A DNA stretch of 64,000 bases from an uncultured Oscillospiraceae bacterium (GTDB lineage: Bacteria; Bacillota; Clostridia; Oscillospirales; Oscillospiraceae). The DNA lies in contig CAMVRT010000006.1 in assembly GCA_947169975.1 (NCBI GenBank), positions 1 through 64,000 of the forward strand. Reading direction: 5' to 3'. The position numbers and the translations under genes are program-made. Shown piece by piece: positions 10,634 through 31,369 of this stretch (the stretch's first letter is position 1; each line of letters begins with the position of its first letter). A model generated the notes under the pieces. That model searched no databases and was not told the DNA's origin. It saw only the letters and a list, made by a program, of their open reading frames with translations.

Positions 10634-11818
10634 TCAGTCGATGATGCCGTAGCGTTTGAGCAGCGCAATGCGATCCCGGCCGATGCGCAGAGTTTCTGTG
10701 GGCCTCACCGCCTTGCGACCGGCGAGGTATCCCCAGATCCGCTGGACCCATGCCGTCGGCAGCAGCCATGGCTTCGTGCGCAGGTAGGCGTAGCGGCCGG
10801 ACAAATCCTTTGCCGGCGGGAACACCGAGCGCAGCGCCCCGCCCCGGCGTCTTCCCGTGCGGTCAGCCGCCACGGCGTCCAGCGTCAGCGTACTGCTGTG
10901 GAGCCGGTCGATGTCCTCCGCGCCATATATGCCGCCGGAGAGGATGTCCTCCAGCAGCGGCTCAAGATCCTCGTCACAGCCGGCAAAAGCCGCGGGCGCG
11001 GCAAGCCCCAGATATGTCTCGCCGATGGCGAAGAGAGCCGCGGCAAAGCGGCGGATATGCAGCGTCTCACAGGCAGAGGCGATGTGTTCCCAGTCCAGCT
11101 CGCTGCCGTATCGCGCAGCGAACAATCCCATGTCGCAGATCTGCCGGATGCCGACGCCGCCGTGAAGCAGGTGCTTGTAGGCGTGGCACAGGAGATACAG
11201 CATGTGATCCGTGGGCGACAGTGTGCGAAAGCGCACGCCCTGAATCTCCACCATTATGCTGCGCTCCAATGCATGGATGAAAGGTGCGTTGCAGTCGCCA
11301 TAGGCGTCGGAGCCCTCAGCAAACAGGCGGCGATGCACCTCCAGATAGAGGTGCCGTTCCGGATCTCGGAATGTGATCTCCTCCGCGTCCGGTGCGGGAT
11401 CGCCGTCTATGTGCAGGCTGCAGTCCAGCAGTGCGTCCCGGAGCAGGGGGTAGTCGCTGTCCGACACCAGCAGATCCTCATCCGTGGAGGGACGCTGCTC
11501 CGGCTGGGGATAGAGATCCCGCAGGATGATGCCCTTGATGACCAGCGGCTGCATGCCACGGTTTGTCAGCTCCCGGTACAGCAGCAGGAAATCCGCCGTG
11601 CGCTGGGCCTGCCGGATGGTAAGCTGTCTGGCCAGGTTTTTCATGGGGGCATTCTCGCTGCCGACAGCCTCCGCCACCAGCGGCAGAATGCTGTGGATGT
11701 GGGCCAAACGGGTCAAGCTCCGCTGATCGTCAGAAGATAGGGAATCTCCCCACGAAACCGTTTCTCCGTGAACGGCACAGTGCAGGGCATCAAGCAGCAG
11801 CTCCTCGACTTTGTTCAT
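10634..11818 (-). CDS. nucleotidyltransferase family protein, cassette copy 1
   Basis: 394-aa protein resembling the uncharacterised nucleotidyltransferase family often listed as NTP_transf_5. An all-helical N terminus leads to the motif VIKGIILRDLYP (K95, G96), then STDEDLLV, where D113 and D115 form the D-x-D metal site of the polymerase-beta-like fold. It probably transfers a nucleotide or nucleotidyl sugar to an unknown acceptor. Relatives neighbour HPr-kinase-like and PqqD-like genes in some lasso-peptide and exopolysaccharide loci. Last gene of copy 1, 3 nt after the repeat protein. Its C-terminal two thirds are DNA-identical to copy 2. Confidence 0.8.
   Translation of the reverse strand: MNKVEELLLDALHCAVHGETVSWGDSLSSDDQRSLTRLAHIHSILPLVAEAVGSENAPMKNLARQLTIRQAQRTADFLLLYRELTNRGMQPLVIKGIILRDLYPQPEQRPSTDEDLLVSDSDYPLLRDALLDCSLHIDGDPAPDAEEITFRDPERHLYLEVHRRLFAEGSDAYGDCNAPFIHALERSIMVEIQGVRFRTLSPTDHMLYLLCHAYKHLLHGGVGIRQICDMGLFAARYGSELDWEHIASACETLHIRRFAAALFAIGETYLGLAAPAAFAGCDEDLEPLLEDILSGGIYGAEDIDRLHSSTLTLDAVAADRTGRRRGGALRSVFPPAKDLSGRYAYLRTKPWLLPTAWVQRIWGYLAGRKAVRPTETLRIGRDRIALLKRYGIID
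10640..11317. repeat. 678-bp identical block shared with 20746-21423
   Basis: By eye the DNA matches 20746-21423 base for base (offset 10106). Identity starts within the last codons of the two nucleotidyltransferase genes and stops at 11317/21423, after which the copies differ at many sites. A recent gene-conversion or recombination tract is the simplest reading. Confidence 0.85.
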
Positions 11819-11821
11819 AGC

Positions 11822-12382
11822 TTACAGGCCGCCGGAGCCCTGGTCGCCGGGAACGACAATGACCAGATTGCCGTTCTCGTCCACATAGTACTCCGGCTCG
11901 TCATCTTCGCCGGGTTCGTCACCGGGTTCGTCACCGGGTTCGTCACCGGGTTCCACGGGATCGTCCGGATCGGTGGGATCAACAGGATCCGCGGGATCGG
12001 TGGGATTGTCCGGATCAGTGGGATTCGTGGGATTTGTAGGATCCAGCGGGCCTGGCTCAATGGGGGTGGCGGGATCGGCGGGATTTGCCGGATCAACCGG
12101 CGTCACGGGATCGGTGGGATTTGCCGGATCAACCGGCGTCACGGGATCGGTGGGATTTGCCGGATCAACCGGCGTCACGGGATCGGTGGGATTTGCCGGA
12201 TCTACTGGCGCCACAGGATCGGCTGGATCAGCCGGCTTGCCGGGCTCGTTGGCTTCCGTAGACGGAGTCGCGGGATCGGGTTTTGCGGAAGGTGTTTCAC
12301 CCCCGCAGCCCGTCCAGATCAGCGTGCCGATGATCAGAAAGCACAGGACGACCAAAAGCGTCAGCGTTTTTTTCTTATTCAT
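11822..12382 (-). CDS. membrane-anchored Pro/Asp/Thr-repeat protein with conserved tail, copy 1
   Basis: 186-aa protein. Residues 4-26 are hydrophobic and end WTGCGG, a weak lipobox-like site, so it may be a lipoprotein or a signal anchor. About 30-160 is a PVDPANPTDPVT-type repeat and then GDEP repeats, an extended acidic spacer. The last 24 residues (EYYVDENGNLVIVV...GSGGL) are nearly the same in copy 2, although spacer length differs. That points to a functional tail displayed at the end of a stalk. It overlaps the PqqD-like gene by 8 nt and precedes the nucleotidyltransferase by 3 nt. No known family fits. Confidence 0.75.
   Translation of the reverse strand: MNKKKTLTLLVVLCFLIIGTLIWTGCGGETPSAKPDPATPSTEANEPGKPADPADPVAPVDPANPTDPVTPVDPANPTDPVTPVDPANPTDPVTPVDPANPADPATPIEPGPLDPTNPTNPTDPDNPTDPADPVDPTDPDDPVEPGDEPGDEPGDEPGEDDEPEYYVDENGNLVIVVPGDQGSGGL
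11911..11946. repeat. 12-bp tandem repeat encoding GDEP
   Basis: Three exact copies of CGGGTTCGTCAC encode GDEP-GDEP-GDEP near the C-terminal end of the stalk. Confidence 0.8.
12080..12223. repeat. 36-bp tandem repeat encoding a 12-residue PDT unit
   Basis: Units begin at 12080, 12116, 12152 and 12188. The first three are identical over 36 bp and the fourth is diverged. Being in frame, they change stalk length in 12-residue steps. Copy 2 of this gene lacks this array. Confidence 0.85.
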
Positions 12383-12677
12383 GGGTTCCTCCTTGCTCCT
12401 CGGGGAGCAGATAGTTCAGCTCCAGCATCTGCCGGAGAAAGGCCTCCACCGCCTGCCTCGCGGCAGAGGGATCGGGTATGTCATATTCCGTGTCCAGAGC
12501 GGCCATGAGACCGTCCAGATCGGCGCCATGGGTCAGCTGCCGCCACAGGAAGGCGGAGGTTTCGTTGATCTCTGTCACGTAGGGACACAGATCCCGCAGG
12601 GCCGCTGCTGCTACCAGTATATACTGACCGCAGATGGCGGTCAGCACCACGCCGGGGCGTGTCTTATAGTGTGTCAT
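12375..12677 (-). CDS. PqqD family protein (RRE-like peptide chaperone), copy 1
   Basis: 100-aa PqqD-like protein: an N-terminal beta segment (KTRPGVVLTAICGQYILV), then helices including INETSAFLWRQL and a C-terminal helix ending LELNYLL. PqqD-type domains bind leader peptides of ribosomally made, modified peptides and deliver them to a modifying enzyme. Here it overlaps the HPr-kinase-like gene by 14 nt, indicating tight translational coupling and probably a physical partnership. AAAGGAGG lies just upstream of ATG 12677. No radical-SAM or B2-type peptidase gene accompanies it. Confidence 0.8.
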   Translation of the reverse strand: MTHYKTRPGVVLTAICGQYILVAAAALRDLCPYVTEINETSAFLWRQLTHGADLDGLMAALDTEYDIPDPSAARQAVEAFLRQMLELNYLLPEEQGGTHE

Positions 12678-13395
12678 GGCGGCCTCCTTTCAGTGTCTCG
12701 CGCAACAGGGCAGTAGATGCATCATCGCCCCGGTTTTCAAAGAACCAGACGGGCGCGTATTGCAGGATCTGTTCCACCAGCCGTGACAGCGCCAGGATAT
12801 CCTTCTCGTTCTCCGGCCGCACCATGAACTGCCGGAACAGAACCGGGATGGCGTCGCAGACAGGCAGGGGATAGGTGACGTTCTCATCCTTCTGCTCCAA
12901 CCGGACGATGCCGCCCAGGGGGGCGGAGAGGGAACGGTCGCCCATGTGTTCCTTGCCGTTCCAGGGACTGGGGTGGACCCAAACCGAGCCGTCGTCCCGC
13001 CCCTCCAGCACGGGTATATCGCCGCAGATCATTTGGACCTCGCCGGGGAAGAGGCGCTGCCAGTTGCGGAACTGGGTGGTCTTTCCCACGCCGCTGGGAC
13101 CGGTGACGAGCCAGGCTCGGCCCTGCCACAGGAAGGCGGCTGCGTGGAACAGGCAGCAATCCCAACGCAGCAGGGGATGGCAGGTGAGGCCGATAAGACT
13201 GCGAAACTCTACCGCGTCCGGCGCAGCATTTTCGGGCAGCATTGGCCGGATATAGTCCAGCCAATCGTCCGAGGCGCGGACGTCCCAGTTCTCGCCGGGC
13301 GCTTGCCGCATATATCTTCCGAAATAGAGGCGAGTATCCATCCAGCGCAGCGCGTAACGCACGGTATGGCCGGCGTATTCCACCTGATAGATCAT
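12664..13395 (-). CDS. HPr kinase-like P-loop protein, copy 1
   Basis: 243-aa protein. The Walker A loop GPSGVGKT is at 99-106. H84 (LFHAAAF) precedes it, and D126 (MICGD) follows at the spacing seen for the catalytic Asp of HprK/P. WVHPSPWNGKE is near residue 140. HprK/P itself is longer, with an N-terminal domain, so this is one of the short HprK-related kinases found with PqqD-like proteins in lasso-peptide (PadeC-type) and exopolysaccharide loci. It probably phosphorylates Ser/Thr of a peptide, but the substrate is unproven. An AGGAGGAG site precedes ATG 13395. Transcription must read through the hairpin at 13429-13468. Confidence 0.8.
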   Translation of the reverse strand: MIYQVEYAGHTVRYALRWMDTRLYFGRYMRQAPGENWDVRASDDWLDYIRPMLPENAAPDAVEFRSLIGLTCHPLLRWDCCLFHAAAFLWQGRAWLVTGPSGVGKTTQFRNWQRLFPGEVQMICGDIPVLEGRDDGSVWVHPSPWNGKEHMGDRSLSAPLGGIVRLEQKDENVTYPLPVCDAIPVLFRQFMVRPENEKDILALSRLVEQILQYAPVWFFENRGDDASTALLRETLKGGRHDTL

Positions 13396-13428
13396 GTGCT
13401 GTGTACTCCTCCTGGATAAAGATCGTGG

Positions 13429-13468
13429 GAAAAGAATAGCGTGGAGATGCCCCCACGCTATTCTTTTC
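13429..13468 (-). terminator. terminator-like attenuator between small protein and kinase genes, copy 1
   Basis: A 16-bp stem (13453-13468 with 13429-13444) closes an 8-nt loop and contains a pyrimidine/T-rich 3' arm. It begins 5 nt after the small-protein stop and precedes the kinase gene. The same hairpin is found at 23409-23448. Partial termination would make the upstream two genes more abundant than the downstream four. Confidence 0.7.
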
Positions 13469-13473
13469 AGTTG

Positions 13474-13779
13474 TTAGGGGTTGCAGCCAGGATAGGGCTG
13501 GTTCAGATCAATGCCGGGATTGTACTCGTTCCATGCCTCGGCACTGAGATTGTTATGAAGCCACCACAGACGGTAGTCTTCCCTATCTATGTCACTATCA
13601 TCGTCCATGTGGCAGGCAAACAATTGCAGCCAGCCGGAAAAGTTGCAGGGAGTGGGTACCTCCCCATCTTCTGGTGTGCCCGTGCCGGAGCCGAAGAACG
13701 GATTAACGTCATCACCGGGGTTGTCGTCGTGACCGCGGGTCAACAGAACATAGGGGAATGCGAAGTATTTCTTAGCCAT
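13474..13779 (-). CDS. small protein with conserved N-terminal motif and EF-hand-like loop, copy 1
   Basis: 101-aa protein of no recognised family. Residues 3-16 (KKYFAFPYVLLTRG) match copy 2 except for F8/Y. About 17-44 is a variable Gly/Asp/Pro linker. C45 and C56 flank an aromatic segment. The loop H57-D68 resembles a dockerin or EF-hand calcium loop but has His at position 1 and lacks the Gly. The tail AEAW..YNPGIDLNQP is conserved, with an extra C99. There is no signal peptide. GAGGTGAT precedes ATG 13779. Its place before kinase and PqqD-like genes fits a modified precursor peptide; a calcium-binding partner of the giant protein is the alternative. Confidence 0.7.
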   Translation of the reverse strand: MAKKYFAFPYVLLTRGHDDNPGDDVNPFFGSGTGTPEDGEVPTPCNFSGWLQLFACHMDDDSDIDREDYRLWWLHNNLSAEAWNEYNPGIDLNQPYPGCNP

Positions 13780-13814
13780 TGTAAATCACCTCAATCTTTC
13801 TGTCGTATCGCCGG

Positions 13815-16800
13815 TCAAGGATTCGTAGGGTCTGTGTACGGGGTAATGGTGGATGCGGGTGTCTTGATCGTTCCGATCTTGATGGTATCCGCGCTTTGGA
13901 TACGCACCAGGCCGCGCTGGGCAGTGCCGGTGACCATCATGTTGTCGGGCGTGACCCAGTAGTTCAGGATATCCGTGATACTATCTTGCGTGGGCCACTC
14001 GATGGCGGTGTAGACCAGGTAACCATTTTTAACGCCCTTGCTGCCGAAGATCGAATCAGGGGTCAGCTTGACGCTGGTCACGGGCTCGGTCTTTGTCATG
14101 ATCGTCAGGGACTTGGCAACTTTACCATCGTGCGGCGTGCCATCGTACTTGATGCCGTAGGACTGGTAATTGTTGTCGTCGATGGCGGTAACCATCCACA
14201 GCTTGGTGATCATGTTGTGGATTTCGTTGGTGGTGCCAAACTTGTAGGTGTAGTGGGTGTAATGCTGCAGGTAGCTGGTGGGGACCTCTTTGATGTAGTA
14301 GGTCTGGCCGGCCTCGGGGACGATGGCGTTGCCGGGAGCATCGCCGTCATCGGCCTTGTAAGCGTCGTCCCACTTCCAGGTGACGCCGGGGTTGACCTTG
14401 GCTGCGTCGTATTTCTCGACGGCGTTGGCCTTGGTCACGACGGCGCTTCCGGTGGCGTTCAGCTCGGCGGCGGTAGCAGCCTCCTTAGGCGCGGTCCACA
14501 GGGACTTGCCGTAGGTGGAATCCTTGCCGTCGTAGGCCTTGTAATAGCCGCCGTACAGGAAGCCGTCGGCGTACCTCTGCTCTTCGGTGCCCTTGGGAAC
14601 CAGAGCGGTCAGGTTGAAGGTCTTGGCTGCGCGGTTATCGCCGGTGCCGGTGGTGGCGCTGATGACGCGGCGCTCCACGACGCCGGTGCCGGAGTGGCAG
14701 ACGTAGAAGACCTTGCCCCAGACGGCGTACATGTCGTGGTAGGGACGGTCATTGTCGGCGGCCACCTGGGAATACTTGACGTTGCCGGCGCTGCCGTGGA
14801 GCTTGTAGGTCCCTTCGTTGGGCGTCCCTTCGTTGGGCAGCCACTCCAGGTACAGATCGCTCTCATTCAGTTCGGAGTGATCCGACCAAGGGGCGGCGCC
14901 GGTGGCGTTCGGCACGCGGGCCCAGCCCAGGAACACATGATCCTCATATACAAGGGTCTTAGTTTGACCGTCTCGCGCCGGAACCGTATAGGTAATGGTG
15001 TCGTCGTTGGGCGTGGGGATGTCATAGGCCGTGTTAAGTTTGATGTCGGTCATCTTGTACACGGCTGCGGTTCCGTCGTTGAGGTACCAGTTGATGGAGG
15101 TCTTGCCGTTTTCCTTCCTGCCGTACACGGCGCGGAGGGTGACCACGTACTTCTTGGTGGCCGTCTGCTTGTACACGGCGTTGATGGTCAAGTTGGACGT
15201 GATGTTGGTCAGCTTCTTATCCCAGCTGTTGAAGGTGTAGCCGGTGGGCGGCGTGGGCAGGGTGGGAGCTGTAGCATCCTGACCGTGCTGGACGGTCTGG
15301 GTGGAGGTGACCCACTCGCCGTCACTGTTCATATAGCGGAAAGTGACGGTGTAGGACAGGGTGCTCTTGTTCACGTACTGGGCGGTGACGGTGATGTTCT
15401 CCGTAACGTTGTCGAACGCGGTGTCCCAGCCGGTGAAGATCATGCCCTGAGCGCTGTGGTCGGGCGCATCGGGGGCTGCGGCGGCGGTGCCGTCCTCCAC
15501 CTGCACGTCGGCGATCTTGGTGTTGGTGTAGCCGTCCATGAAGGTGACGGTGTGCATGGTGGGACCGACCTCGATGGTGGTCTTCTTGAAGAGTTGTACC
15601 GTTTTCGCGTAGTCGGTATCATAGTCGACGTCAAAATACGTGGGGACGCCGCTGACATTAAGCATTGAGAGATACAGACGGTAGTAGCTGCTGCTGTAAT
15701 AATGGGAAAGACGGTGCGTGCTGCTGTCCCATACCCAGGTGGCGCCATAGCCGCTGCTATAGGAAGCCGGATACAGATTCAGGTTTGTGGTACTGTCATC
15801 ATCACCGACACGCAGATAATAGTTCGAGTTGTAGCCGGACTGGATGCTGTATTTGCTGTTGGAGGTGGAGTTGAAGATCCACTCCACGTGGGCCAGTGTG
15901 GCGCCGGAGATATTGGAGCTGTCGACGCCGGTCACGTTGCCGTTTTCATCCAGCACGGCGGGGATCGCATAGCTGAGGTGATCTGTTGTGTATCCAGACA
16001 GACTTGCGCTGCCGTAGTAGGTGCCCGTGGAGGGATTGTAGCTCATCAGCAGATAGGTCGTACCGTTGCTGGCCTTAACACCGATCAGGTAGTCCGCGCC
16101 GGTCTCGATGGTGTCCACCGGAGCGTAGACCGTCATGGTCTCGGCCGTCGGGTGTACGATCTCGCCGGGGCGAGACAGCTTCGGCGTTTCCGTGCTGAGG
16201 GCCACAGGGGATGCGGCATTGCTGCCGGCGCCGGAAACAGCCTCCTCCACTGCGTAGCTATAATTCACTCTCCACAGCTGGCCGGGATATGCCTTGTCCA
16301 CGGGATTGCCGTCCCGATCCAGGATCTCCCAGTACAGGAACTGGAGGCCCGTGTTGTCGGGGGTAGAGGCGGGCTGACCGAAGGCCATGGCCTGGTCGGC
16401 GTAGATCTTGGGATCGTTCCAGGTGTGTTCGCTATTCTGGGAGAACGTGCCGTCGTTGCCGTCCTTGTCGTCAGCCAGATACTTCACGTTGATACCGACG
16501 ACGCCGTCGGGATCCTGGCGCCACAGGGCATAGATGGTCAGCTTGCCGCGGACGTTGTCACGGCCCACGTCGGTATAATGCAGGGGGTTGCCGGTCTCCG
16601 AGTTGATGTTCCAGGGGTCATCGCCCTGACGGTCCGTGGCGGAGGCGTTGATGTAATCCATGTCCACATTCTGGGTGGAGGTGGTCACGGGGTTGCTGAA
16701 GTTGTAGGGGATGGTGTGGTTCTTATCCAGATACCAGCCCAGCAGGGTGTAGCCGGTACGCTGGGCATTGTTGATGGAGGAGCCCTCCACCAGTTCGCCG

Positions 16801-19628: not shown

Positions 19629-19791
19629 CGTTTTCCTCCTTGCTCACTGCCTGCGCCTTGTTTGACACAGACTGGAATTTACCGCTAGATTTGCGCTCTC
19701 CACACGCCGGGCAAATGGCCGGTGTACGGCGGGGGGAGCAGAGCTGCGTTTGCCGCGAAAACGGCGTACTCCCACACTTTTACATAGTAAG

Positions 19792-19860: not shown

Positions 19861-19863
19861 GCC

Positions 19864-19892: not shown

Positions 19893-19951
19893 AAATGTGG
19901 CACAAATATGTGCAAAATTTGAGACACCTTGCGGCGGGGAGGATTGATGAA

Positions 19952-21927: not shown

Positions 21928-22368
21928 TTACAGACCGCCGGAGCCCTGGCCTTCGGGAACGATAATGACCAGGTTGCCGTTTTCATCGATGTAGTAGTCC
22001 GGCTCACCGTCGCCGTCGGGATCGGTGGGATCGTCCGGATTTGTTGGCTCCACAGGATTGGTGGGGTTATCCGGATCGACGGGCTCCACCGGGTTGGTGG
22101 GATTATCCGGATCCGTGGGCTCCACAGGAATGGTAGGATCCAACGGGCCTACGGGACTGACGGGATCGGTGTTCTCCGGGGGCGCTGCCGGATCCGTGGG
22201 AGCTGCCGGTTCGGAGGGATCGTTTGTCTTGCCGGGATCAGCGGGATCCGCAGTGCTGGCAGACGGCGTCTGCGGTGCGGAGGGAATCTTTCCGCCCTGC
22301 CAGATCAGCACAGCGATGACCAGCAACGTGACAATGGCCAGCACGAGGATCAGTATTTTTCTACTCAT
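21928..22368 (-). CDS. membrane-anchored Pro/Asp/Thr-repeat protein with conserved tail, copy 2
   Basis: 146-aa counterpart of the gene at 11822-12382. Residues 4-24 are a hydrophobic anchor ending LIWQGG, with no Cys, which argues that copy 1 is also a signal anchor and not a lipoprotein. The stalk (about 30-120) is a degenerate DPDNPTNPVEP repeat, shorter than in copy 1. The tail YYIDENGNLVIIV...GQGSGGL is conserved. It overlaps the PqqD-like gene by 8 nt. The function is unknown; a variable stalk with a fixed tip suggests presentation of the tail outside the membrane. Confidence 0.75.
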   Translation of the reverse strand: MSRKILILVLAIVTLLVIAVLIWQGGKIPSAPQTPSASTADPADPGKTNDPSEPAAPTDPAAPPENTDPVSPVGPLDPTIPVEPTDPDNPTNPVEPVDPDNPTNPVEPTNPDDPTDPDGDGEPDYYIDENGNLVIIVPEGQGSGGL

Positions 22369-22663
22369 GTCTTCCTCCTTGCTCCACGGGGAGCAGATAA
22401 TTCAGCTCCAGCATCTGCCGGAGAAAGTCCTCCACGGCCTGCCGCGCAGCAGAGGGATTGGGAATGTCGTATTCATTGTCCAACGCGGCCATGAGGCCGT
22501 CCAGATCCGCACCGGACATCATCTGCCGCCACAGGAAGGCGGAGGTTTCGTTGATCTCCGTCACGTAGGGGCACAGGTCCCGGATGGCTGCTGCGGCCAC
22601 CAGTACGTGTTCGCCGCAGACGGCAGTCAATACCACGCCGGGGCGTGTCTTATAGTGTGTCAT
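22361..22663 (-). CDS. PqqD family protein (RRE-like peptide chaperone), copy 2
   Basis: 100 aa, closely matching the copy 1 protein over its whole length (MTHYKTRPGVVLTAVCGEHVLV at the start). The fold order beta-strands then three helices is as in PqqD. The gene overlaps the kinase gene by 14 nt, with its AAAGGAGG inside the kinase reading frame. The predicted role is to bind a leader-like segment, most plausibly in the adjacent 93-aa protein, and present it to the kinase. That link is inference from order and family. Confidence 0.8.
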   Translation of the reverse strand: MTHYKTRPGVVLTAVCGEHVLVAAAAIRDLCPYVTEINETSAFLWRQMMSGADLDGLMAALDNEYDIPNPSAARQAVEDFLRQMLELNYLLPVEQGGRHE

Positions 22664-23381
22664 GGCGGCCTCCTTTCAGTGTCTGACGCAGCAGGGCGGT
22701 GGATGCGTCGTCACCCCGGTTCTCGAAGAACCACATGGGGGCGCAGCGCAGGATCTTGTCCACCAGCCCGCTCAGCGCCAGGATCTCCTCTTCATCCTCC
22801 GGCCGCACCATGAACTGGCGGAACAGCAGGGGGATGGCGTCGCAGACGGGCAGGGGATAGATAGTGTTCGCCTCTTTCTGCTCCAACCGGACGACGCCGC
22901 CCAGGGGAGCGGAGAGGGACCGGTCGCCCATGTGCTCCTTGCCGTTCCAGGGGCTGGGGTGGACCCAGACAGAGCCGTCGTTGCGGCCCTCCAGCACGGG
23001 CATGTCGCCGCAGATCATTTGGACCTCACCGGGGAAGAGACGCTGCCAGTTGCGGAACTGGGTGGTCTTTCCCACGCCGCTGGGCCCGGCGACCAGCCAG
23101 GCATGGCCCTGCCACAGGAAGGCGGCGGCGTGGAACAGGCAGCAGCCGTAGCGCAGCAGGGGATGGCAGGTAGAGCCGATGAGAGCGCGGTGCTCCAGAT
23201 ACGGCCCGTGGGTTCCCCGCGGCAGCAGAGCGCGTACATAGTCCAGCCACGTATCCGTGACGCAGACGTCTGAGGCGTCGTCGGGTGCTTCATGCATATA
23301 ATCGCCGAAAAAGCGGCGCGTCTCCGGCCAGCGCAGCGCGTAGCGCACGGGGTGACCGGCGTATTCCACCTGATAGATCAT
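22650..23381 (-). CDS. HPr kinase-like P-loop protein, copy 2
   Basis: 243 aa, same length as copy 1. Walker A GPSGVGKT at 99-106, H84 before it and D126 (MICGD) after it are all conserved. The region after the P-loop is nearly identical to copy 1, whereas about 20-70 is diverged. Such a split, with a constant ATP site and a variable N-terminal part, would fit recognition of different substrates. AGGAG precedes ATG 23381. No HPr, PTS or CcpA gene is nearby, so a classical catabolite-repression role is unlikely. Confidence 0.8.
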   Translation of the reverse strand: MIYQVEYAGHPVRYALRWPETRRFFGDYMHEAPDDASDVCVTDTWLDYVRALLPRGTHGPYLEHRALIGSTCHPLLRYGCCLFHAAAFLWQGHAWLVAGPSGVGKTTQFRNWQRLFPGEVQMICGDMPVLEGRNDGSVWVHPSPWNGKEHMGDRSLSAPLGGVVRLEQKEANTIYPLPVCDAIPLLFRQFMVRPEDEEEILALSGLVDKILRCAPMWFFENRGDDASTALLRQTLKGGRHDTL

Positions 23382-23408
23382 GGCTGCTCCTAAAGGGTAA
23401 GATCTTGG

Positions 23409-23448
23409 GAAAAGAATAGCGTGGAGATGCCCCCACGCTATTCTTTTC
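23409..23448 (-). terminator. terminator-like attenuator, copy 2
   Basis: Same 16-bp stem and 8-nt loop as at 13429-13468, again 5 nt after the small-protein stop and upstream of the kinase gene. The flanks differ (for example GATCTTGG against GATCGTGG), so the hairpin itself looks conserved. Confidence 0.7.
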
Positions 23449-23453
23449 AGTTG

Positions 23454-23735
23454 TTAGGGGTTGGGCTGGTTCAGATCAATGCCGGGATTGTAGTCTCCCC
23501 ATGCCTCGGCGCTGAGATGGTTAGAAAGCCACCACCGACGGTAGTCTTCCCTATCCATGTCCCCGTCACCGTCCATGTCGCAGGCAAACGATTGCTGCCA
23601 CGTTGAAAAGTCGCAGGGAGTAGCATCAGGCGTGCCCATGCCGGAGCCGTAGCCCGAATCATCGCCATCACCGGGGGTGTCGCCGGGACCGCGGGTCAAC
23701 AGAACGTAAGGATATGCAAAGTATTTCTTATTCAT
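23454..23735 (-). CDS. small protein with conserved N-terminal motif and EF-hand-like loop, copy 2
   Basis: 93-aa protein. Residues 3-16 (KKYFAYPYVLLTRG) match copy 1. A Gly/Asp/Ser linker (17-40) is variable. C41 and C52 flank FSTWQQSFA. D53-D64 (DMDGDGDMDRED) is a textbook 12-residue calcium loop like one half of a dockerin. RRWWLSNHLS follows, then the tail YNPGIDLNQP. A single dockerin half would be unusual. The N-terminal Tyr/Pro/Leu/Thr/Gly pattern loosely recalls lasso leader peptides recognised by PqqD-like domains. There is no signal peptide, so export would need processing or a dedicated transporter. It is 35 nt after the giant gene. Confidence 0.72.
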   Translation of the reverse strand: MNKKYFAYPYVLLTRGPGDTPGDGDDSGYGSGMGTPDATPCDFSTWQQSFACDMDGDGDMDREDYRRWWLSNHLSAEAWGDYNPGIDLNQPNP

Positions 23736-23770
23736 TGTAAATCACCTCAATCTTTCTGTCGTATCGTCGG

Positions 23771-26700
23771 TCAAGGATTCGTAGGGTCTGTGTACGGGGT
23801 AATGGTGGAGTCGACAGTGGTAAGCGTCTCAATGTGGATGGTATCGGCGCTCTGGATATCCACCAGGCCGCGCTGGGCGGTGCCGGTGACCATCATGTTG
23901 TCGGGCGTGACCCAGAAGTTCAGAATGTTGTCGATCTTATTGCCGTCCACATTGGGCCACTCGATGGCGGTGTAGGCCAGGTAACCCTTCTCAACACCCT
24001 TGCTGCCGAAGATCGAAGTGGGTGTCAGCGTGACGCTGGCCACGGGCTGGGTGGAGGTGCTGATCTTCAGGGACTTGACGACCTTGGCCTCATTGTCCGC
24101 AGTGAGGTACTTGATGCCTACGTGCTGATAGTTGTTGTCGTCCACGTCGGTGACCATCCACAGCTTGGTGATCAGGTTGTTGGTTCCGTTGGTGGTGCCA
24201 AACTTGTAGGTGTAGTGGGTGTAATGCTGCAGGTAGCTGGTGGGGACCTCCTTGATGTAGTAGGTCTGGCCGGCCACGGGGACGATGGCGTCGCCGGGAG
24301 CAGCGCCGTCATCGGCCTTGTAAGCGTTGGCCCACTGCCAGGTGACGCCGGGGTTGACCTTTGCTGCGTCGTATTTCGTGACGGCGTTGTCCATGGTCAC
24401 GACGGCGCTTCCGGTGGCGTTCAGCTCGGCGGCGGAAGCGGGCGTGGTCCACGTCAGGGTCGAACCGAGCTTTTCCGTGTAGGTGCTGTATGCCTTGTAA
24501 TAGCCACCGTAGAGGGTGTTTGCGGTGAGGTTCGCCGTCAGATCGAAGGACTTGTCAACGCGTTTCTCGGTGCCGTTCACGTCCTTCATTTCGGTGGCGC
24601 TCCAGACGTGGCGCTCGATGGTGCCGGTGCCGGAGTGGCAGACGTAGAAGACCTTGGCCCACACAGCGTACATGTCGTGATAGGGGGACATCTCATCGGC
24701 GGCAATCTTGGCGGCACTGACCCAGTTGTCGCCGTTCTTGTACTCATAGCCGGTGCCGGTCCACTTCAGGTACAGGTCGTCCTCACCCAGTTCGGGATGA
24801 GCGGTACCCTTGCCAGCTGTGTCGTTGGGGTCGGCCTCCAAACGGGCCCAGCCCAGGAACACGTGGTCGGCATAGGTCAGACCCAGGTTGGTGGTGGGGT
24901 TCAGGTTGATGTTCTCGTAATGATCCTTGGTGCCGTTGAAGAAGGTGGTGGGCGTGGGGATATCGTAACCGAAGTTGATCGTCAGACCCTTGTCGCGCTC
25001 AACGGAGACGCCGGCGGTCTCACCGGTGGGATCGTTGTTGCCGAACCAGGTGATGTGGGTGCCGGACTTGTTGTACGGCCCATAGACGGCGTGCAGGTAC
25101 ATGGTGTAGGTGTAGACGCCGACCTTGGTGTACTGAGCCCAGTAGTCCGCGTCCGAAGTGGCGGCCACGGGAGCGGCGATCTCGCCGTTCTCGGAGGCAG
25201 CCCAGCCGCTGAACATCCACTCGTCTCCGTTGCCGTCCTCCCAAACGGGGTGGGAGCTGTAGGTGGGGACAGCACCCTCGGCGACTCTGGTGGTCACCGT
25301 GGTCCAGGTGCCGCCGTCGGTCTTGATGTGCCAGGTGATGGTATAGGAGACGTTGGTGTACTGGGCGGTGTAGGTGGCGGGACCGGTGGCTGCCGCAATG
25401 GCGGGAGTCCAGCCGGTGAAGCGGTACTCATCGCCGCCGGAGGTGTAGCTGGCGGGGGTGAAGCCGGGAGCGGGGATGGCGTTGGGCGCAACTTCGGTGG
25501 TGATGCTGGTATTTGCGCCGGTGCTGTCCTTGTAGCTCCAGGTGATGGTGTAGCTCTGTACCTCATACTGGGCGGTGTAGGTCGTCGCCTCGGTGGCGGC
25601 CACGATCGTCTTGTCCCAGCCGGTGAAATGGTAGGTCGTGCCGTTCAGGGTGTAGGTTTCGGGAACAGTGGGTGCGGTGGGGGTGTTGCCCTCCAGCACC
25701 GTGGAGGTGGTGGAGGCGTCAGCACCGCTGGCGTCCTTGTAGTTCCAGGTGATGGTGTAGCTGGGGGTGGAGGGCGTAAAGGTTACATCGTCGATTCTGC
25801 CGCAATCGGGAGAATTGCTCGTGGAACTATCCTTCGTAAATCTCCATGTGAAAGAATATGTTCCGGCGCTCGGCGCGGTAAAGGTGAAAGTTTCAAAACC
25901 TGTTGACTCACAGACCTTGCCGAAATCACTGTTTTCAGTACCGTTAACAAGGAAATTCAGATAGTCATAATACGTCGAATTGTAGGAACTCTTTTCGCCA
26001 TAGCCGAAGTATTTGAAGCTGATCTTATCACCGGCCTGCATTTCCAGAGTCAAGTACAAATCAGATGTACTGCTATTCACACCAGCATTACCGGACTGGG
26101 CGTAGCTTTGGCCGCTGGGTACTGTCCAGGGATGTGTAGTACCCGTGGTAAAATGCAGGTTGCCGCCCTCCACGTTCAGGGCTTCATCGAGATCGGTTGT
26201 CGTCGGCTCTTCGCCGCCGTCTTCAACAAGCTTGTATAAAGTATAGGTGTCGTTGGAGCTACTTGCCAACCGAAGATTGACCGAATAACAATCCAGACTA
26301 TAATTATTGCTATTTGTCAATCTGTACCCGTTCCAAGTCCAAGTCTCAGGCGTTGCGGAATACGTCGTATAGGTTGCGGAAGATCCAGTTGCGAGATAGG
26401 TTCCGTTCTCGTTTTTCCAAGAACTTACATCACCCGTGATCGTGAAGAGATAAGAACTCATGTCCTTGGAGAAGGTGTAATAACTGCCGCTGGCAGTAGG
26501 ATCGTTGCCGCTGCTTGAACACGCAACATAATTATTGCCGTCATACATCTCCGGGGGAGTTACTACACAAACGATGTTGCTGGTGTTTGTGTAAGTCAGC
26601 AGATACTTGCCTGCAGACAAGCCAGTTGTTCCAACAGTAATCTGCTCGTACTTATCCGTCGTGGCCTTCACCGGCGTGGTGTTGCCACGGGTGGCGGAGG

Positions 26701-29700
26701 GGCCGGAGGAGTTCGGCTCTGACTTGACCTCGCCGAAGACCGCACGCTGTACAACTGCCGGAGACTCGGGGGAGACGACTGCCATGGTACCGGAGGAGCC
26801 CGCTCCGCCGGTGCCGCTGTCCGCATTCATGTCCCGCTTCTCCCTGTGCATCACCGTAAAGGCGGTTGCGTAGCTCGTGCTCCACTGGAAGTATCTGGTG
26901 CTGCTGTAAGAGGAGCTGCCGTAGTACATGTAATAGTCATTGCTATTGCCCGGCGTGTAGAAGTAGAAGGTACCACTGGTAGAACCGGCTGCCAGCAGCA
27001 TTCTCCAGTAACTGGTAGTGGACAGCGCAGCATAATCCGTATCGCTTGTGTAATCGTAGATATAGCTTCCAGAATAATTGAGGTTCTCAAAATAGAAGCC
27101 CGTAGAGGAGGAGGCGTGGGCGGTCCACTGGGCGGTTACCGGGATCGGAGACGTGTTGGTTCCGTTCAGACGGCCGGTGGAGGACGTCGCGTTCAGATAG
27201 TAATTGGAGCTGCCGACTGTAAACCGGAACATGTAGACATCGCCGTCGATGAAGGTTCCGGAGGTGTCCTGAACCGCATAGTAGGCATAATAGTGGGCAT
27301 ACAGGTCAAGAACCGTTCCGTCAAATTCGGTCGTGCCCGTCACCTCGGTGCCGCCGGTGGCGGCGGTGAACCAGCCCAGGAAGGTGTAGGAGCTGTGGGT
27401 CGGATCCGTCGTCGGGAAAATGTCTCTGAACAGCGTGCCCTTGGTGACGTTGCTGACCGTGGTGGTATCCGCGCTGCCGATGGTGCCGCCGTTGGCATGG
27501 AAGGTGACGGTAAAGGTCCTGTCGGCCGCGGTATAAGTGGCGGTGTAGGTGGTGTCGCCGGAGACCACGGTGATGGCGGGCGTCCAGCCAGAGAAGGTGT
27601 AGGTGTAATCACTGTCAGCGGGTCTGGTGGGGGTGCCGTTGGGATAGCTGGGGGTCTGACCGGCGGTATAGGTCTGCGTCGCAAGCACCGTGCCGTCCCA
27701 GTTCTTCCAGGTGACGGTGAACTGGTGCTGAGACACCTCCTCAGGCTCGCCATAGACCGCGGTGAAGGTGGTGTTCTCATTCACGGCGGGCAGTTCGACG
27801 TTGGTGCCGGTGTGGTTCTCACCGTCGTAATAATACGTTTCGGTTCCGTCGGTCCAGCCGACGACGGGGTAGTAGGAGCTGCCGCTGACGTAGCCGGAGG
27901 GCTTGGAGTGCTGGGGCTCAGCGCCCTTGGTGACGGTGGTGGTATCGGTCAGATTTTCGTCACCGTCAGCGTCCTTGAAGATCCACTTGACCTTGACGGC
28001 CTCCAACTGCACGGTGTAGTCGTAGTCCACGATAAAGGTCTGGCCGGGATACACCTTGATGGTGGTCTGCTCCAGCTTAGGCTCGCCGTTCTCCATGACG
28101 ACGTTGCCGCTGGCGTCCTTCACCGGCTGCATGACCACCCAGTAGAGGAAGCGGTAGTTGTCCTGATCCTCAGGCGTGGAGGCCACCTGGGTGAAGGCCC
28201 TGGCGTGGTCGGTGTAGACGTTGGGGTCGTCCCGAATGATCACGCGGGGATCAGTCTGGGGGGCAAAGTAGCCGTCGCCCTCGATGGCGTCATAGCGGAC
28301 GCGGACGCCGTCGGAGCCGATGGGATTCTGGCGCCACAGAGCGTAAATGGTGACCTTGCCGACCACGTTAGCGTACTTGGGAGTGCCGTCATCATTCAGC
28401 TGGTCGTCGTTATACGGGTTGCCGGTGACCGCGTCTGTGCCGGTGCGGCCGGTACCGTAGGTATAGGTCAGATCCATGTTGTAGGTCTGATCGGTGATGG
28501 CCTCGGCGAAGTTGAAGGGGTGGTTGCCCTGGGGATCCAGGTACCAGCCCAGCAGGGTGTAGCCCTCGCGGGTGGCGGCAATGATGGCGGTGTCGCGGAC
28601 CTTCTCGCCGTAGTCCACGCGGAAGGTGGAGGCCTGGTTGGCGGGGAATTCCACCTGGGCGTCGCTGTGGCCGCCGGTGTAGTCCAGGGTCACGCGGAAG
28701 CGCATCAGCGTCCACTTGGCGTAGACGGCCACGTTGTTATTGGGCATGTCGTCGGTCCAGTCAAATTCCTCGGTGCAGCCAGGGTCTTTATACCAACCGT
28801 CGAAATAGTAGCCGACGGGTCCGTTGGTGGGATCCTTGGTGGGCTTAAAACCGGAGAGACTCTGGTCAAAGTAGACATGCTCGAGATCCTTGCCAGTGCT
28901 GTAAAGATCCGAAGCGGTCAGAGAGGAGCCGTTGGAGAAGAAGTCGAGCTTCCACTGGTTGCGGCTGTAGAAGAAGTACGCGTGACCGTTGGAGCCAATA
29001 TCATCGTAATCGATGCTCAGTTCGTTACCGTCCCACGGTGTGGCCGTGTTATAATTGTTAGCGGTGAGATTGTAGCGGGACAGCCTATAGCCGTAATACT
29101 CGGTTCCACTGAAGTACACGATTTCGCCGGATTTCAGCGCATCTTCGTCAATCGTTATCGTGTAGTTGCCGCTGGAGTCCTGACCAATGCAGCTGTACGG
29201 GCGGGTAGTGCCGGAAACAGCATACGTGTTGAGGAAATAGTTGACTTCCGTCACGTTGCGGGTTCCCGTCTCAAACTGGAACGCCTTGCTCTGATATCTG
29301 CCGTCATAGCCGTTGTGCCACATCTGACGAGTTCCGGGATAGGGCCACTCTCTGCCGCTGATGGCCTCGCCGGTCCAATTAAAGGATTCCATGGTGTCGA
29401 ACCACAGTCCCTGAATGCTGCCGAAGTAGATCTCTGCAGAACCTGTGGACGTGGACGAGCTATTGTAGGTGCAGTGGTAGATAGTGCCGCTGTATGTGGT
29501 CCTGGTTCCGCTGCTATTGTAATAGTACCAGCTGGGGGTGCCGCTGTAGTCGCCGTTGGTTTTGATACTGGCGTCAGTGTAAAGGAGGACGTAGCTGTAA
29601 TTTCCGGAGCTGCCAATGCGACCGTAATGATTGATATAAGAGCTGTAACTATTAGAAGAGCTGGAAGCGGTCTCACCCGTGGTCAGATCGCCGTAGAAGT

Positions 29701-31369
29701 TGAAGGTGATGACCTTGCGGTCGTAGTACACGTTCACAACGGTGGTTCCGTCGCCCTTGATCTTGACGCCATCGCTGTCAGAACGTGCTTCATTGAAGGT
29801 GTAGTAAAAGCCCAGAATACTGCCGGTGGTACCGCCCAGGGTAGTGTCACCGGTCAGATAATTGGCCAACTCGCCGGTCGTTCCTTTTCTGGTGTCGATG
29901 GAGTCGTAGAAGTCGTACTCGTTGTTCAGATTATCATTGTCGACGACATCATCCGCCCGCTGCGTCCAGATAACGACCGTGTACTTGGTGTCCGTCCGCG
30001 GCGTCCACTTGGCGTAGACGGTGGTGTCCGCGGTCAGCTGTCTGGCGGTGTAGGGCGTGGTAAAGCGCTTATCCGTGTACCAGCCGCCAAAGCTATAGCC
30101 CACGCGGTAAGGTTCGGTATCGTGGTCCACGCCGTCGTTGTTGGCGTCACCGTAATCGGTGGGCAGCGCGGCGCTCTCGTCCTTGCCGTAGTACCTGGGG
30201 GAGGTGAAGGAGGCGGAGGTGGTGTCATCATCCTGCTCGATGTAGTTGTCGAAGATCAGCCAGTAGCCCTCCTTCAGGTAGGGGTACAGGTCGATGCTGG
30301 CGGTCAGGTCGATGGTGTCGCCGTTCTCGTACACCACGGGGCTGTCGGGATAAGTGGGCTCGTCGCCGGTGTTGTTGATCACGGGAGTCCAGCCCACGTG
30401 GGCCCAGCCGCTCTTGAACGGGGTGTAAGACAGGTTGACTTCGTAGTCACCGTGGCCGTTGTCCAGGTGGATGGACTCCAGACGGATAACGACGCCGTCC
30501 TGATCGTGGAAGGTGACGAACACCACGTCATAGACCTTGGCGTAGTACTTCCAGGTGAGGTCAGTGGTGGAGGCGGCGAGGGTGGCCTTCTCAGCTTCGA
30601 TCTTATCGTTGATGTCAGCCACGGACCAGCCGGTGTCCTCCTCGGTGTAGGGGGTCTTGTCAGCCCAGCCCTCGAAGCTCTGGGTGGCAGTGATCTCAGG
30701 CACGCCGGGGTCATGGACAAAGTCCATGTCGTTAGCGATATACTGATCCAACTGGTCCAGACGGATGGACTGGCTGCTGATGATCTCGGAGCCGTCCGCG
30801 TTGTAGAACTCCACGGTCAGCAGGTTGATCGTGTTGGTGTTATCGCCCACCACGTAGACGGAGAAGTCCTTGGAGCTGAAGCTGGTGCCGGAGCCCATGA
30901 CCTCCACGGGCACGCTGCCGCTCTCGATCTCCTCGGCGCTGCAGTCCAGATGCAGCACGGTGGGGTTCAGCGTGTTGGCAATGGCGTCGGACGCCAGGGT
31001 GACGGACACGTTCTTCTCAGGCTCGATCTCGCTGCCCTGATAGTAGAACGTGATGTCCTCGGCTGCCACGACGGTGCAGTTGATGTCTGCGGATTTGTCC
31101 ACGATGGTCTGCACGGCAGGCAGGCTGACGCCCTTCACAGACAGAGTCGTCCCCTGGGGCAGTGCGCCCTCGGGAGCGTTCACCGCGATGGACACGCCGG
31201 TCTGGCTGTCGGTCGCCTTGAGCTGCTGGGCAGGCATCTCGGGTCCCTGAGATCCACTGCCCCAGCCCCACTGGTTGCCGCCCGTGGCGAATGCTTCCAT
31301 GGGAACGAGGGAAAGCATCATCAGGAGCGACAGCACAAGGGAAAGGATCTTAACGCTGCGTTTCTTCAT
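23771..31369 (-). CDS. giant secreted InlB-repeat surface protein, copy 2
   Basis: 2532-aa exported protein. Start ATG 31369 (MKKRSVKIL) follows AAAGGAGG; an upstream in-frame ATG at 31405 lacks such a site. A signal peptide spans about 1-30. The N-terminal domain GGNQWGWGSGSQGPEM through VPVEVMGSGTSF is almost identical to copy 1. InlB_B-type repeats (GYSFGGWY, GYTLLGWY, TYTAQY) are more numerous than in copy 1, and Ser/Thr/Tyr-rich inserts are present near 1450-1700. The C-terminal 400 residues parallel copy 1 and end STITPYTDPTNP. No wall-anchor motif is visible. Probably a long adhesin or matrix protein; size differences reflect repeat gain or loss. Confidence 0.85.
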   Translation of the reverse strand: MKKRSVKILSLVLSLLMMLSLVPMEAFATGGNQWGWGSGSQGPEMPAQQLKATDSQTGVSIAVNAPEGALPQGTTLSVKGVSLPAVQTIVDKSADINCTVVAAEDITFYYQGSEIEPEKNVSVTLASDAIANTLNPTVLHLDCSAEEIESGSVPVEVMGSGTSFSSKDFSVYVVGDNTNTINLLTVEFYNADGSEIISSQSIRLDQLDQYIANDMDFVHDPGVPEITATQSFEGWADKTPYTEEDTGWSVADINDKIEAEKATLAASTTDLTWKYYAKVYDVVFVTFHDQDGVVIRLESIHLDNGHGDYEVNLSYTPFKSGWAHVGWTPVINNTGDEPTYPDSPVVYENGDTIDLTASIDLYPYLKEGYWLIFDNYIEQDDDTTSASFTSPRYYGKDESAALPTDYGDANNDGVDHDTEPYRVGYSFGGWYTDKRFTTPYTARQLTADTTVYAKWTPRTDTKYTVVIWTQRADDVVDNDNLNNEYDFYDSIDTRKGTTGELANYLTGDTTLGGTTGSILGFYYTFNEARSDSDGVKIKGDGTTVVNVYYDRKVITFNFYGDLTTGETASSSSNSYSSYINHYGRIGSSGNYSYVLLYTDASIKTNGDYSGTPSWYYYNSSGTRTTYSGTIYHCTYNSSSTSTGSAEIYFGSIQGLWFDTMESFNWTGEAISGREWPYPGTRQMWHNGYDGRYQSKAFQFETGTRNVTEVNYFLNTYAVSGTTRPYSCIGQDSSGNYTITIDEDALKSGEIVYFSGTEYYGYRLSRYNLTANNYNTATPWDGNELSIDYDDIGSNGHAYFFYSRNQWKLDFFSNGSSLTASDLYSTGKDLEHVYFDQSLSGFKPTKDPTNGPVGYYFDGWYKDPGCTEEFDWTDDMPNNNVAVYAKWTLMRFRVTLDYTGGHSDAQVEFPANQASTFRVDYGEKVRDTAIIAATREGYTLLGWYLDPQGNHPFNFAEAITDQTYNMDLTYTYGTGRTGTDAVTGNPYNDDQLNDDGTPKYANVVGKVTIYALWRQNPIGSDGVRVRYDAIEGDGYFAPQTDPRVIIRDDPNVYTDHARAFTQVASTPEDQDNYRFLYWVVMQPVKDASGNVVMENGEPKLEQTTIKVYPGQTFIVDYDYTVQLEAVKVKWIFKDADGDENLTDTTTVTKGAEPQHSKPSGYVSGSSYYPVVGWTDGTETYYYDGENHTGTNVELPAVNENTTFTAVYGEPEEVSQHQFTVTWKNWDGTVLATQTYTAGQTPSYPNGTPTRPADSDYTYTFSGWTPAITVVSGDTTYTATYTAADRTFTVTFHANGGTIGSADTTTVSNVTKGTLFRDIFPTTDPTHSSYTFLGWFTAATGGTEVTGTTEFDGTVLDLYAHYYAYYAVQDTSGTFIDGDVYMFRFTVGSSNYYLNATSSTGRLNGTNTSPIPVTAQWTAHASSSTGFYFENLNYSGSYIYDYTSDTDYAALSTTSYWRMLLAAGSTSGTFYFYTPGNSNDYYMYYGSSSYSSTRYFQWSTSYATAFTVMHREKRDMNADSGTGGAGSSGTMAVVSPESPAVVQRAVFGEVKSEPNSSGPSATRGNTTPVKATTDKYEQITVGTTGLSAGKYLLTYTNTSNIVCVVTPPEMYDGNNYVACSSSGNDPTASGSYYTFSKDMSSYLFTITGDVSSWKNENGTYLATGSSATYTTYSATPETWTWNGYRLTNSNNYSLDCYSVNLRLASSSNDTYTLYKLVEDGGEEPTTTDLDEALNVEGGNLHFTTGTTHPWTVPSGQSYAQSGNAGVNSSTSDLYLTLEMQAGDKISFKYFGYGEKSSYNSTYYDYLNFLVNGTENSDFGKVCESTGFETFTFTAPSAGTYSFTWRFTKDSSTSNSPDCGRIDDVTFTPSTPSYTITWNYKDASGADASTTSTVLEGNTPTAPTVPETYTLNGTTYHFTGWDKTIVAATEATTYTAQYEVQSYTITWSYKDSTGANTSITTEVAPNAIPAPGFTPASYTSGGDEYRFTGWTPAIAAATGPATYTAQYTNVSYTITWHIKTDGGTWTTVTTRVAEGAVPTYSSHPVWEDGNGDEWMFSGWAASENGEIAAPVAATSDADYWAQYTKVGVYTYTMYLHAVYGPYNKSGTHITWFGNNDPTGETAGVSVERDKGLTINFGYDIPTPTTFFNGTKDHYENINLNPTTNLGLTYADHVFLGWARLEADPNDTAGKGTAHPELGEDDLYLKWTGTGYEYKNGDNWVSAAKIAADEMSPYHDMYAVWAKVFYVCHSGTGTIERHVWSATEMKDVNGTEKRVDKSFDLTANLTANTLYGGYYKAYSTYTEKLGSTLTWTTPASAAELNATGSAVVTMDNAVTKYDAAKVNPGVTWQWANAYKADDGAAPGDAIVPVAGQTYYIKEVPTSYLQHYTHYTYKFGTTNGTNNLITKLWMVTDVDDNNYQHVGIKYLTADNEAKVVKSLKISTSTQPVASVTLTPTSIFGSKGVEKGYLAYTAIEWPNVDGNKIDNILNFWVTPDNMMVTGTAQRGLVDIQSADTIHIETLTTVDSTITPYTDPTNP

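Follow-up and report, generated by a model that had tools for sequence, protein, structure and literature searches.

A tandem-duplicated cassette of an uncultured Oscillospiraceae bacterium pairs giant surface proteins with small proteins that may be modified under the guidance of a RiPP recognition element

When analyzing a 64,000-nucleotide stretch of the genome of an uncultured Oscillospiraceae bacterium (GenBank assembly GCA_947169975.1, contig CAMVRT010000006.1, positions 1 to 64,000; the window), we noticed that the minus strand between 10634 and 31369 reads as two tandem cassettes, A and B, of six genes each. They encode a giant InlB-repeat surface protein, a small protein, an HprK-like kinase, a PqqD-like protein, a stalk protein, and a nucleotidyltransferase (NTase). 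The open reading frame (ORF) coordinates bear out the tandem duplicate described in a sequence-only reading of this DNA: order and strand are the same in both copies, the kinase and PqqD-like genes overlap by 14 nucleotides (nt), the PqqD-like and stalk genes overlap by 8 nt, and 3 nt separate the stalk and NTase genes. On balance, we favor the view that the PqqD-like protein guides modification of the small protein and that the small protein is the partner of the giant. Our best reading is that a phosphorylation (perhaps sugar-phosphate) pathway like that of the linear polyphosphorylated peptides (LPPs), directed by a recognition element for ribosomally synthesized and posttranslationally modified peptides (RiPPs), was recruited to supply giant adhesins with an accessory subunit, next to an exopolysaccharide locus.

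In the proposed pathway, the cassette would make a giant secreted surface protein and a small partner handled like the precursor of an LPP or lasso-type RiPP. The discrete RiPP recognition element (RRE) would grip the small protein by its N-terminal F-x-x-P-x-[VI] leader and present it to the HprK-like kinase, which would phosphorylate a Ser or Thr, most likely in a Gly-rich G-x-G-[ST]-G segment, and the NTase would next put a sugar or nucleotide on the phosphate. An ABC exporter would move the product out, without a dedicated peptidase cutting the leader. Outside the cell, the EF-hand-like C-terminal half of the small protein would dock on the C-terminal domain (CTD) of the giant, and the membrane-tethered stalk would help to keep the complex on the cell surface, next to the exopolysaccharide. 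Export, docking, and the role of the stalk are each held with less confidence than the RRE-guided modification.

The small protein, not the giant, is the likely substrate, given the identity of the RRE, a leader motif, the pairing of giant and small genes, and the tracking of the CTD with the kinase. By profile comparison, the PqqD-like protein is grouped with RREs: the four best matches of its profile in the Protein Data Bank (PDB) were TbiB1, LppB (9x8z), TfuB1, and PbaB1 (9x90), with E values of 0.0016 to 0.072, and both copies match PF05402 at E 2e-10, with no further match to that family in the window genome. RREs of lasso peptides bind leaders of the form [Y/W]xxPx[L/V/I/A/F/Y], and LPP precursors have YxxPxV (Popov et al. 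2026, PMC13381572; this paper and PMC9266682, cited below, were available in part). Residues T30, N33, Y60, F74, and M78 of LppB are kept in both window RREs. Within the first 22 residues, 12 of 25 small proteins have [FYW]xxPx[LVIAFY], a count reached by none of 3,000 N-terminal shuffles (mean, 1.75), and 20 of 25 have it with looser spacing (shuffle mean, 3.55; 0 of 3,000 reaching 20); Phe and the looser spacing were admitted after the sequences had been seen, and the motif was scored in small proteins, not in giants. The usual form is FxxPx[VI], with Phe in place of Tyr.

Leader subtype and RRE subtype also appear to match, which we treat as suggestive only. LppB holds the leader Tyr through a bond from Asp70 (PMC13381572). 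The 14 RREs paired with Phe-leader small proteins (in five of which Phe stands two, not three, residues before Pro) all have A, V, L, or M at the equivalent position, and both RREs whose small protein has a near-N-terminal YxxPx[VI] have Asp there (G172 and one G1098 locus; G, C, and L numbers are our handles for genomes, contigs, and loci). Fisher's test gives 0.008 for these 14 Phe and 2 Tyr cases, a value that, like the second one given below, comes from related rows. The RRE tree sets eight RREs apart as a clade of their own (98/98); at five of their loci the small protein is known, four times without the leader motif and once, in G445, with a loose match. G445, which has FRPMA in its small protein and Met at the Asp70 position of its RRE, stands outside the 14 and is grouped in the tree with the proteins lacking the Pro, a group that includes G391, which has no known small protein, and G191, which has a partial one. 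For the study of RRE specificity, the leaders with Phe and those with Tyr form a natural series.

Every one of the 25 assessable giants whose CTD is clear has a small gene after it, 23 directly and two (G029 and G1108:C79) with a stalk gene in between. The count omits G1098:C70, whose giant sits at the end of a contig, as well as the weak-CTD giants of G013, G017, G191:C78, G342, G283, and G323, and the small genes were hand-picked among short same-strand ORFs adjoining a giant or kinase, other short ORFs being passed over. Pairing is also seen with the giant downstream of the enzymes (G1155:C12 and G1073:C45), and in G1100 two giants in one stretch with a single enzyme set have their own small gene each. 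In G1155:C24 and G1073:C50, which were looked up on purpose once the pairing pattern had emerged, a giant-small pair is present and the fetched 7 and 11 kb contain no enzyme gene. In G283, the enzymes and a giant-stalk-small trio are on different contigs, and the enzyme set may therefore work in trans. A C-terminal "NP" ending common to the giants and small proteins of the window was tried as a pairing code and rejected, as it fails in G019, G001, and others. As a separate observation, a 38-residue ORF beginning MKLLYKTPEIEIEWEV with a YxxPxI leader of the LPP/lasso type lies behind a weak-CTD giant in G013:C21 (L183, 4420-4536, minus-strand coordinates), with no kinase within the 9 kb fetched around it.

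Alignment of 11 giants revealed a recurrent C-terminal region, LYGGYY ... YYxKEVP ... YWVTPDGxxVTG; no LPXTG-type tail was seen by eye at these C termini, and a ten-row profile of the CTD had no PDB match below E 0.3. Among 400 genomes of the family, the CTD was found in 10 at E 1e-8, 8 of them within the 10-genome kinase class described below (hypergeometric, 1e-13); G191 scores just 36 bits and G283 70 bits among those 8, and the CTD genomes outside the class are G323 and G342. The window genus (32 genomes) has seven CTD matches, of which the five strong ones (at least 177 bits) are the five cassette genomes and those in G013 and G017 are weak (at most 48 bits). In genus g5 (101 genomes), all 12 CTD genomes fall within the 13 kinase genomes (hypergeometric, 1e-14), and the kinase genome without the CTD is G1111, whose contig starts inside the small gene. 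Both hypergeometric values are overstated, since the genomes are related and not independent, and the CTD profile, built from giants picked beside the kinase, favors cassette giants.

So close a tracking of the kinase by the CTD would suit a pathway in which the giant itself is the modified product, kinase and NTase acting on its CTD before secretion and the small protein serving as a chaperone that brings it to the RRE. The sequence-only reading had allowed for a modified giant. We find this very improbable: the N terminus of the giant looks signal-like by eye, while most small proteins bear an RRE-type leader, and in the known cases the RRE subtype goes with the small-protein subtype. HprK-like tailoring kinases are not known to act on Sec substrates.

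The pairs found away from any enzyme gene bear on a different explanation, an ordinary LPP cluster, with the small protein giving rise to a linear phosphorylated peptide natural product and the giant a mere operon neighbor. We judge this unlikely, also because CTD giants are restricted to kinase genomes in one genus and no SipW-like peptidase (TIGR02228) stands beside any cassette; the genes above the cutoff (4 of 25 cassette genomes) are on contigs other than the cassette's, and with weaker matches included such genes occur in 12 of 25, none adjoining a cassette. What speaks for it is that a similar set of kinase, RRE, NTase, and transporter near capsule loci is described for LPPs (PMC13381572) and that, by eye, more distant kinases of the same order adjoin an S24/S26-like peptidase. 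These more distant HprK-like kinases (L042, L043, L045, L053, L054, and L055), several of which have a PqqD-like ORF or an ABC exporter nearby (by eye), are perhaps LPP-type clusters. On another contig of the window genome (G000:C5), two SipW-like signal peptidase genes lie about 3 kb apart (99953-100420 and 102888-103328), and a similar pair is seen in G019, G025, and G425.

The enzymes resemble the tailoring sets of LPPs and of paeninodin. An 18-row kinase profile matches the HprK structures 1jb1, 2qmh, and 1ko7 over the P-loop region (E 0.006 to 0.011). At E 0.01, 15 of the 18 kinases match ScmC, six HprK_rel_A, three HprK_rel_B, and one HPr(Ser) kinase, and one matches Hpr_kinase_C in Pfam. 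His84, Lys105, and Asp126 are invariant in 18/18 and, by position rather than by alignment with a lasso kinase, would fit three residues of the His-Lys-Asp-Asp set reported for lasso kinases. The window NTases match PF14907 (E 1e-41 and 8e-43), and the DED motif is kept in 6/6. For the chemistry, homologs are the guide: LppK phosphorylates the LPP precursor (PMC13381572), PadeK and PsmK phosphorylate theirs (PMC9266682), and PsmN either installs hexoses on phosphoserine or first acts as a nucleotidyltransferase (PMC9266682). The likeness to lasso tailoring enzymes proposed in the sequence-only reading is supported.

Beyond the leader, the small proteins share further features. Among 22 leader-bearing small proteins, DY..W/F is found in 18 (shuffles, 1.5), a G-x-G-[TS] type segment in 15 (0.97), and a strict EF-hand loop in 6 (0.43), counts as high as in none of 2,000 shuffles; the Gly-rich and DY..W patterns were defined after the sequences had been seen. 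The label "EF-hand-like" given before to the small protein holds for copy B, whose loop (DMDGDGDMDRED) fits, and fails for copy A (HMDDDSDIDRED), in which the first Asp and the Gly are gone. The last residue is Pro in both small proteins of the window. The calcium loop of dockerins is of the DVNGDG type, and several small proteins have such a loop followed by DY..W. Dockerins, however, have paired EF-hand repeats, whereas the small proteins have a single loop and an N-terminal leader motif. An ordinary dockerin was rejected, as 10 small proteins had no Pfam dockerin match under HMMER filters that drop weak ones.

Several results weigh against RRE-guided modification of the small protein and its docking on the giant. 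Other first-pocket residues of LppB, namely V35, C39, V63, and V67, are changed in the window RREs. The published [YW]xxP form of the leader occurs in 2 of 25 small proteins (shuffle mean, 0.78), a count matched by 549 of 3,000 shuffles; even the loose motif is missing in five of the 25 (G029, G241, G1098a, G1098p, and G1108b) and in the small proteins of G283 and G323, added later. The RREs of G261, G241, and G1098a, whose small proteins are of the Tyr-P kind, have Gly at the Asp70 position, and with them Fisher's test gives 0.058. The Gly-rich Ser/Thr segment is present in only 15 of the 22 leader-bearing small proteins. In the PDB, Midasin (E 0.0014) ranks ahead of HprK for the kinase profile, and the window kinase, taken by itself, gives no match to an HprK-type model at E 0.01. 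No activity of LppN, the closest NTase, was seen in its heterologous host, and deleting lppN made no difference (PMC13381572). Behind two weak-CTD giants, those of G013:C7 and G342, there was no small gene that would fit. The stalk is found at 20 of 28 kinase loci, not all, and the exporter (more than 370 bits) in only 14 of 26 fetched kinase stretches. A model of the CTD from a three-row alignment had a pLDDT of 31 and is worthless, so gene pairing is the sole basis for docking.

The closest known system is that of the LPPs (LppA/B/K/N/S), and we propose that the cassette set would work like the LPP tailoring set. According to the available parts of the LPP paper (PMC13381572), both have a discrete RRE, an HprK-like kinase (a likeness at profile level), an NTP transferase, an ABC exporter, no macrocyclase, a linear precursor with a conserved xxPxV leader at the N terminus, and a place near capsule loci; the NTase here belongs to PF14907, and those parts give no Pfam number for LppN. 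LPP clusters, however, have an SpI-like leader peptidase, LppS, of which the cassettes have none, and their precursor motif is YxxPxVLxHQxIxFETxxS, whereas here there is just the xxPxV core, mostly with Phe and with no HQxIxFETxxS. Asp70 is lost here in the RREs with Phe leaders, and many small proteins have an EF-hand-like C-terminal half; the partner here is a giant surface protein with a common CTD, together with a tethered stalk. The LPP exporter is MsbA-like; the exporter here has ABC_membrane and ABC_tran domains, and in the window its gene runs divergently from the cassettes. For both LPPs and paeninodins, the role is described as unknown (PMC13381572).

Paeninodin and pseudomycoidin biosynthesis (PadeK, PsmK, and PsmN; PMC9266682, available parts) shares a kinase and a nucleotidyltransferase acting on the precursor and an RRE in the cluster. 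The cassettes differ from it in having no B2 peptidase or lasso cyclase, and the window small proteins have no C-terminal Ser acceptor. The sequence-only reading noted the absence of the lasso B2 peptidase and cyclase, and the window cassettes offer no room for them, the largest gap being 78 nt; no genome-wide or profile search for them was made. With the LPP peptidase and full precursor motif and the lasso B2 peptidase and cyclase all lacking, we file the cassette neither as LPP nor as lasso. The HPr-rel-A and SynChlorMet systems (TIGR04352, TIGR04353, and TIGR04249) likewise have an HprK-like kinase beside a PqqD-like protein. Profile matches are weak, though, and the window proteins score far below the cutoffs (18.4 bits against a cutoff of 35 for TIGR04353; TIGR04352 is not among the matches listed for the window kinase). 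This combination was not found described in the titles and abstract beginnings of the papers that searches of PMC, bioRxiv excluded, brought up.

RREs are known from pathways making small natural products, and the pairing of a kinase and NTase of the lasso-pathway kind with giant surface proteins suggests a new job for such enzymes. Because the enzymes are linked to the giants through the common CTD and the small partner gene, a concrete, testable role can be proposed, the maturation of a cell-surface protein subunit. A further step, which we advance with considerable doubt, is that the pathway makes a structural subunit bearing phosphate or sugar-phosphate, docked on giants through the CTD and held by the stalk, which would be a new way to build and anchor a bacterial cell surface. 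Table 1 lists the features.

Table 1. Features of cassettes A and B and the neighboring exporter gene in the window
Feature	Coordinates	Strand	Remarks
Giant InlB-repeat surface protein A	13815-19628	-	1937 aa; N terminus signal-like by eye
Giant A conserved CTD	13830-14588	-	tracks kinase across genomes
Small protein A	13474-13779	-	101 aa; proposed RRE-bound precursor/substrate
Small A leader motif FAFPYV (FxxPxV)	13747-13764	-	residues 6-11
Small A Gly-rich segment GSGTGT	13675-13692	-	candidate Ser/Thr acceptor
HprK-like kinase A	12664-13395	-	assigned at profile level
PqqD-like discrete RRE A	12375-12677	-	PF05402 and PDB profile matches
Stalk protein A, membrane-tethered	11822-12382	-	C-terminal tail NLVIVVPGDQGSGGL
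Nucleotidyltransferase A	10634-11818	-	PF14907; DED motif kept
Giant InlB-repeat surface protein B	23771-31369	-	2532 aa, counted from ATG 31369
Giant B CTD	23786-24553	-	CTD profile match
Small protein B	23454-23735	-	93 aa
Small B leader motif FAYPYV	23703-23720	-	residues 6-11
Small B Gly-rich segment GYGSGMG	23634-23654	-	candidate acceptor
Small B EF-hand/dockerin-like loop DMDGDGDMDRED	23544-23579	-	sequence
HprK-like kinase B	22650-23381	-	
RRE B (PqqD-like)	22361-22663	-	PF05402
Stalk protein B, TM anchor	21928-22368	-	tail NLVIIVPEGQGSGGL
Nucleotidyltransferase B	20740-21924	-	PF14907
ABC exporter	32016-33809	+	divergent from window cassettes; ABC_membrane and ABC_tran

We investigated the distribution of the kinase in related genomes. 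At E 0.001, searches with the window kinase gave hits in 26 of 99 relatives, and searches with small protein B in 4 of 99. A seven-kinase profile found 68 of 400 family genomes at 1e-20, ten of which form a high-scoring class (at least 196 bits; next, 139 bits), its boundary having been set after this gap was seen. A 15-kinase profile gave matches at 1e-42 in 20 of 394 genomes of the order; only the window genome and G261, of the same family, exceed 300 bits, and the other 18 score at most 175 bits. The kinase was found in 2 of 299 genomes of the phylum, the window genome and G077 (151 bits), and in 13 of 101 genomes of genus g5 at 1e-50 (17 kinases, at least 247 bits). A scan of genome contigs with a single kinase gave one locus, in Oscillospiraceae bacterium UBA3851. 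Within the samples searched, the kinase class is confined to one family; 6 (400 family genomes), 7 (394 order genomes), up to 9 (299 phylum genomes), and up to 27 (g5) candidates were scored per genome, and misses are possible.

Gene content was compared at 28 kinase loci of 24 genomes, in 26 fetched stretches: window A and B, G025, G019, G001, G035, G029, G425, G172, G261, G191, G391, G283, G241, G445, G1085, G1073, G1079, G1108 (two), G1155, G1100, G1111, G1098 (three), G1104, and G1135. The RRE adjoins the kinase at 27 of the 28 (exception, G1108:C53), and the NTase is present at 24, missing at G261, G1073, G1108:C53, and G445 (contig end). A giant with the CTD lies within the stretch at 22 loci; the giant-less loci comprise three cut by contig ends (G191, G1111, and one of G1098) and three that are not (G391, G283, and G445). 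The stalk count given above excludes two likely false calls of the detector, L038 1482-2168 and L169 9946-10128. The sequence-only reading named relatives with kinase, PqqD-like, and NTase genes but no small or giant genes as grounds for refutation, and this applies in part: in G391 and G283, kinase, RRE, and NTase occur with neither a giant nor a small gene adjacent. G391 is a counterexample, with no CTD match genome-wide, and G445 has the small gene with no giant upstream and no CTD match in its genome. In G323, whose kinase falls below the class cutoff, a giant, stalk, small gene, RRE, kinase, second RRE, NTase, and exporter are present. At G1098:C45 (L165), two cassettes converge on opposite strands, and the G172 NTase is split over two ORFs (L087 7820-9058).

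The two window cassettes have diversified around their surface proteins, as had been suggested. Giants A and B, which match PF09479 (E 8e-22 and 6e-24), are 54% identical over 1844 aligned residues, with 77 to 81% in the first 200, 35 to 61% in the middle, and 80, 68, and 84% in the last three stretches; the ORF list begins giant B at TTG 31405, and ATG 31369 was used here. Kinase, small, and stalk proteins of the window match no Pfam family above the cutoff. Nucleotide identity between the copies is 94% for the NTase, 86% for the RRE, 84% for the small gene, 82% for the kinase, 67% for the stalk, and 68% over the aligned part of the giants. Within the NTase gene it rises from 74% in the first 100 nt to 89 to 92% up to nt 500 and 99 to 100% in 100-nt windows from 500 to 1100, so that 10634-11318 and 20740-21424 (minus strand) are near identical, a sign of recent gene conversion. 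Kinase B is closer to that of G025 (93%) than to kinase A (82%), the G025 RRE is 89.1% identical to copy A and 87.8% to copy B, and the NTase and small genes of A and B are each other's nearest. The RRE tree groups B with G025, with uneven support (98/26). We read this mosaic as a duplication that probably predates the split from G025, with later partial homogenization by gene conversion; the genes disagree on its age. Between the cassettes, convergent with the NTase B gene, lies an ORF for an OmpR-type response regulator (19895-20665, plus strand) that was absent from the earlier list, and the space between the two is too small for a histidine kinase gene.

The stalk has an N-terminal membrane anchor or lipobox, a Pro/acid-rich spacer, and a conserved C-terminal tail with a consensus in many members of about DLVIxIPDDxESGG[L/F]; stalk A matches the NCBIfam model "lipo-invert" weakly (22.3 bits against 37). 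From this anatomy, our guess is that it would hold the complex at the surface. In several other cassettes, a relative of the exporter comes immediately behind the NTase. Past the exporter, the window enters an exopolysaccharide locus, with CpsB/CapC, Wzz with AAA_31, a sugar transferase, and glycosyltransferases among ten proteins scanned. This neighborhood, and the addition of hexoses to phosphoserine by PsmN (PMC9266682), would accord with a polysaccharide anchor, in which kinase and NTase would equip the small protein with a sugar phosphate to prime or anchor the exopolysaccharide and tie the polymer to giant and stalk. It seems to us a rather improbable account, as adjacency to polysaccharide genes was checked for part of the cassettes only and LPP clusters, too, lie near capsule loci with no such role shown for them in the available parts of PMC13381572. 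On the other side of the cassettes, next to the NTase A gene, a sulfatase-fold membrane protein resembling LtaS, far below the LtaS cutoff, is encoded at 8211-10451 (minus strand), and at the equivalent place G019 (L038 3516-5627) and G001 (L039 1433-3712) have ORFs that resemble it in size and start.

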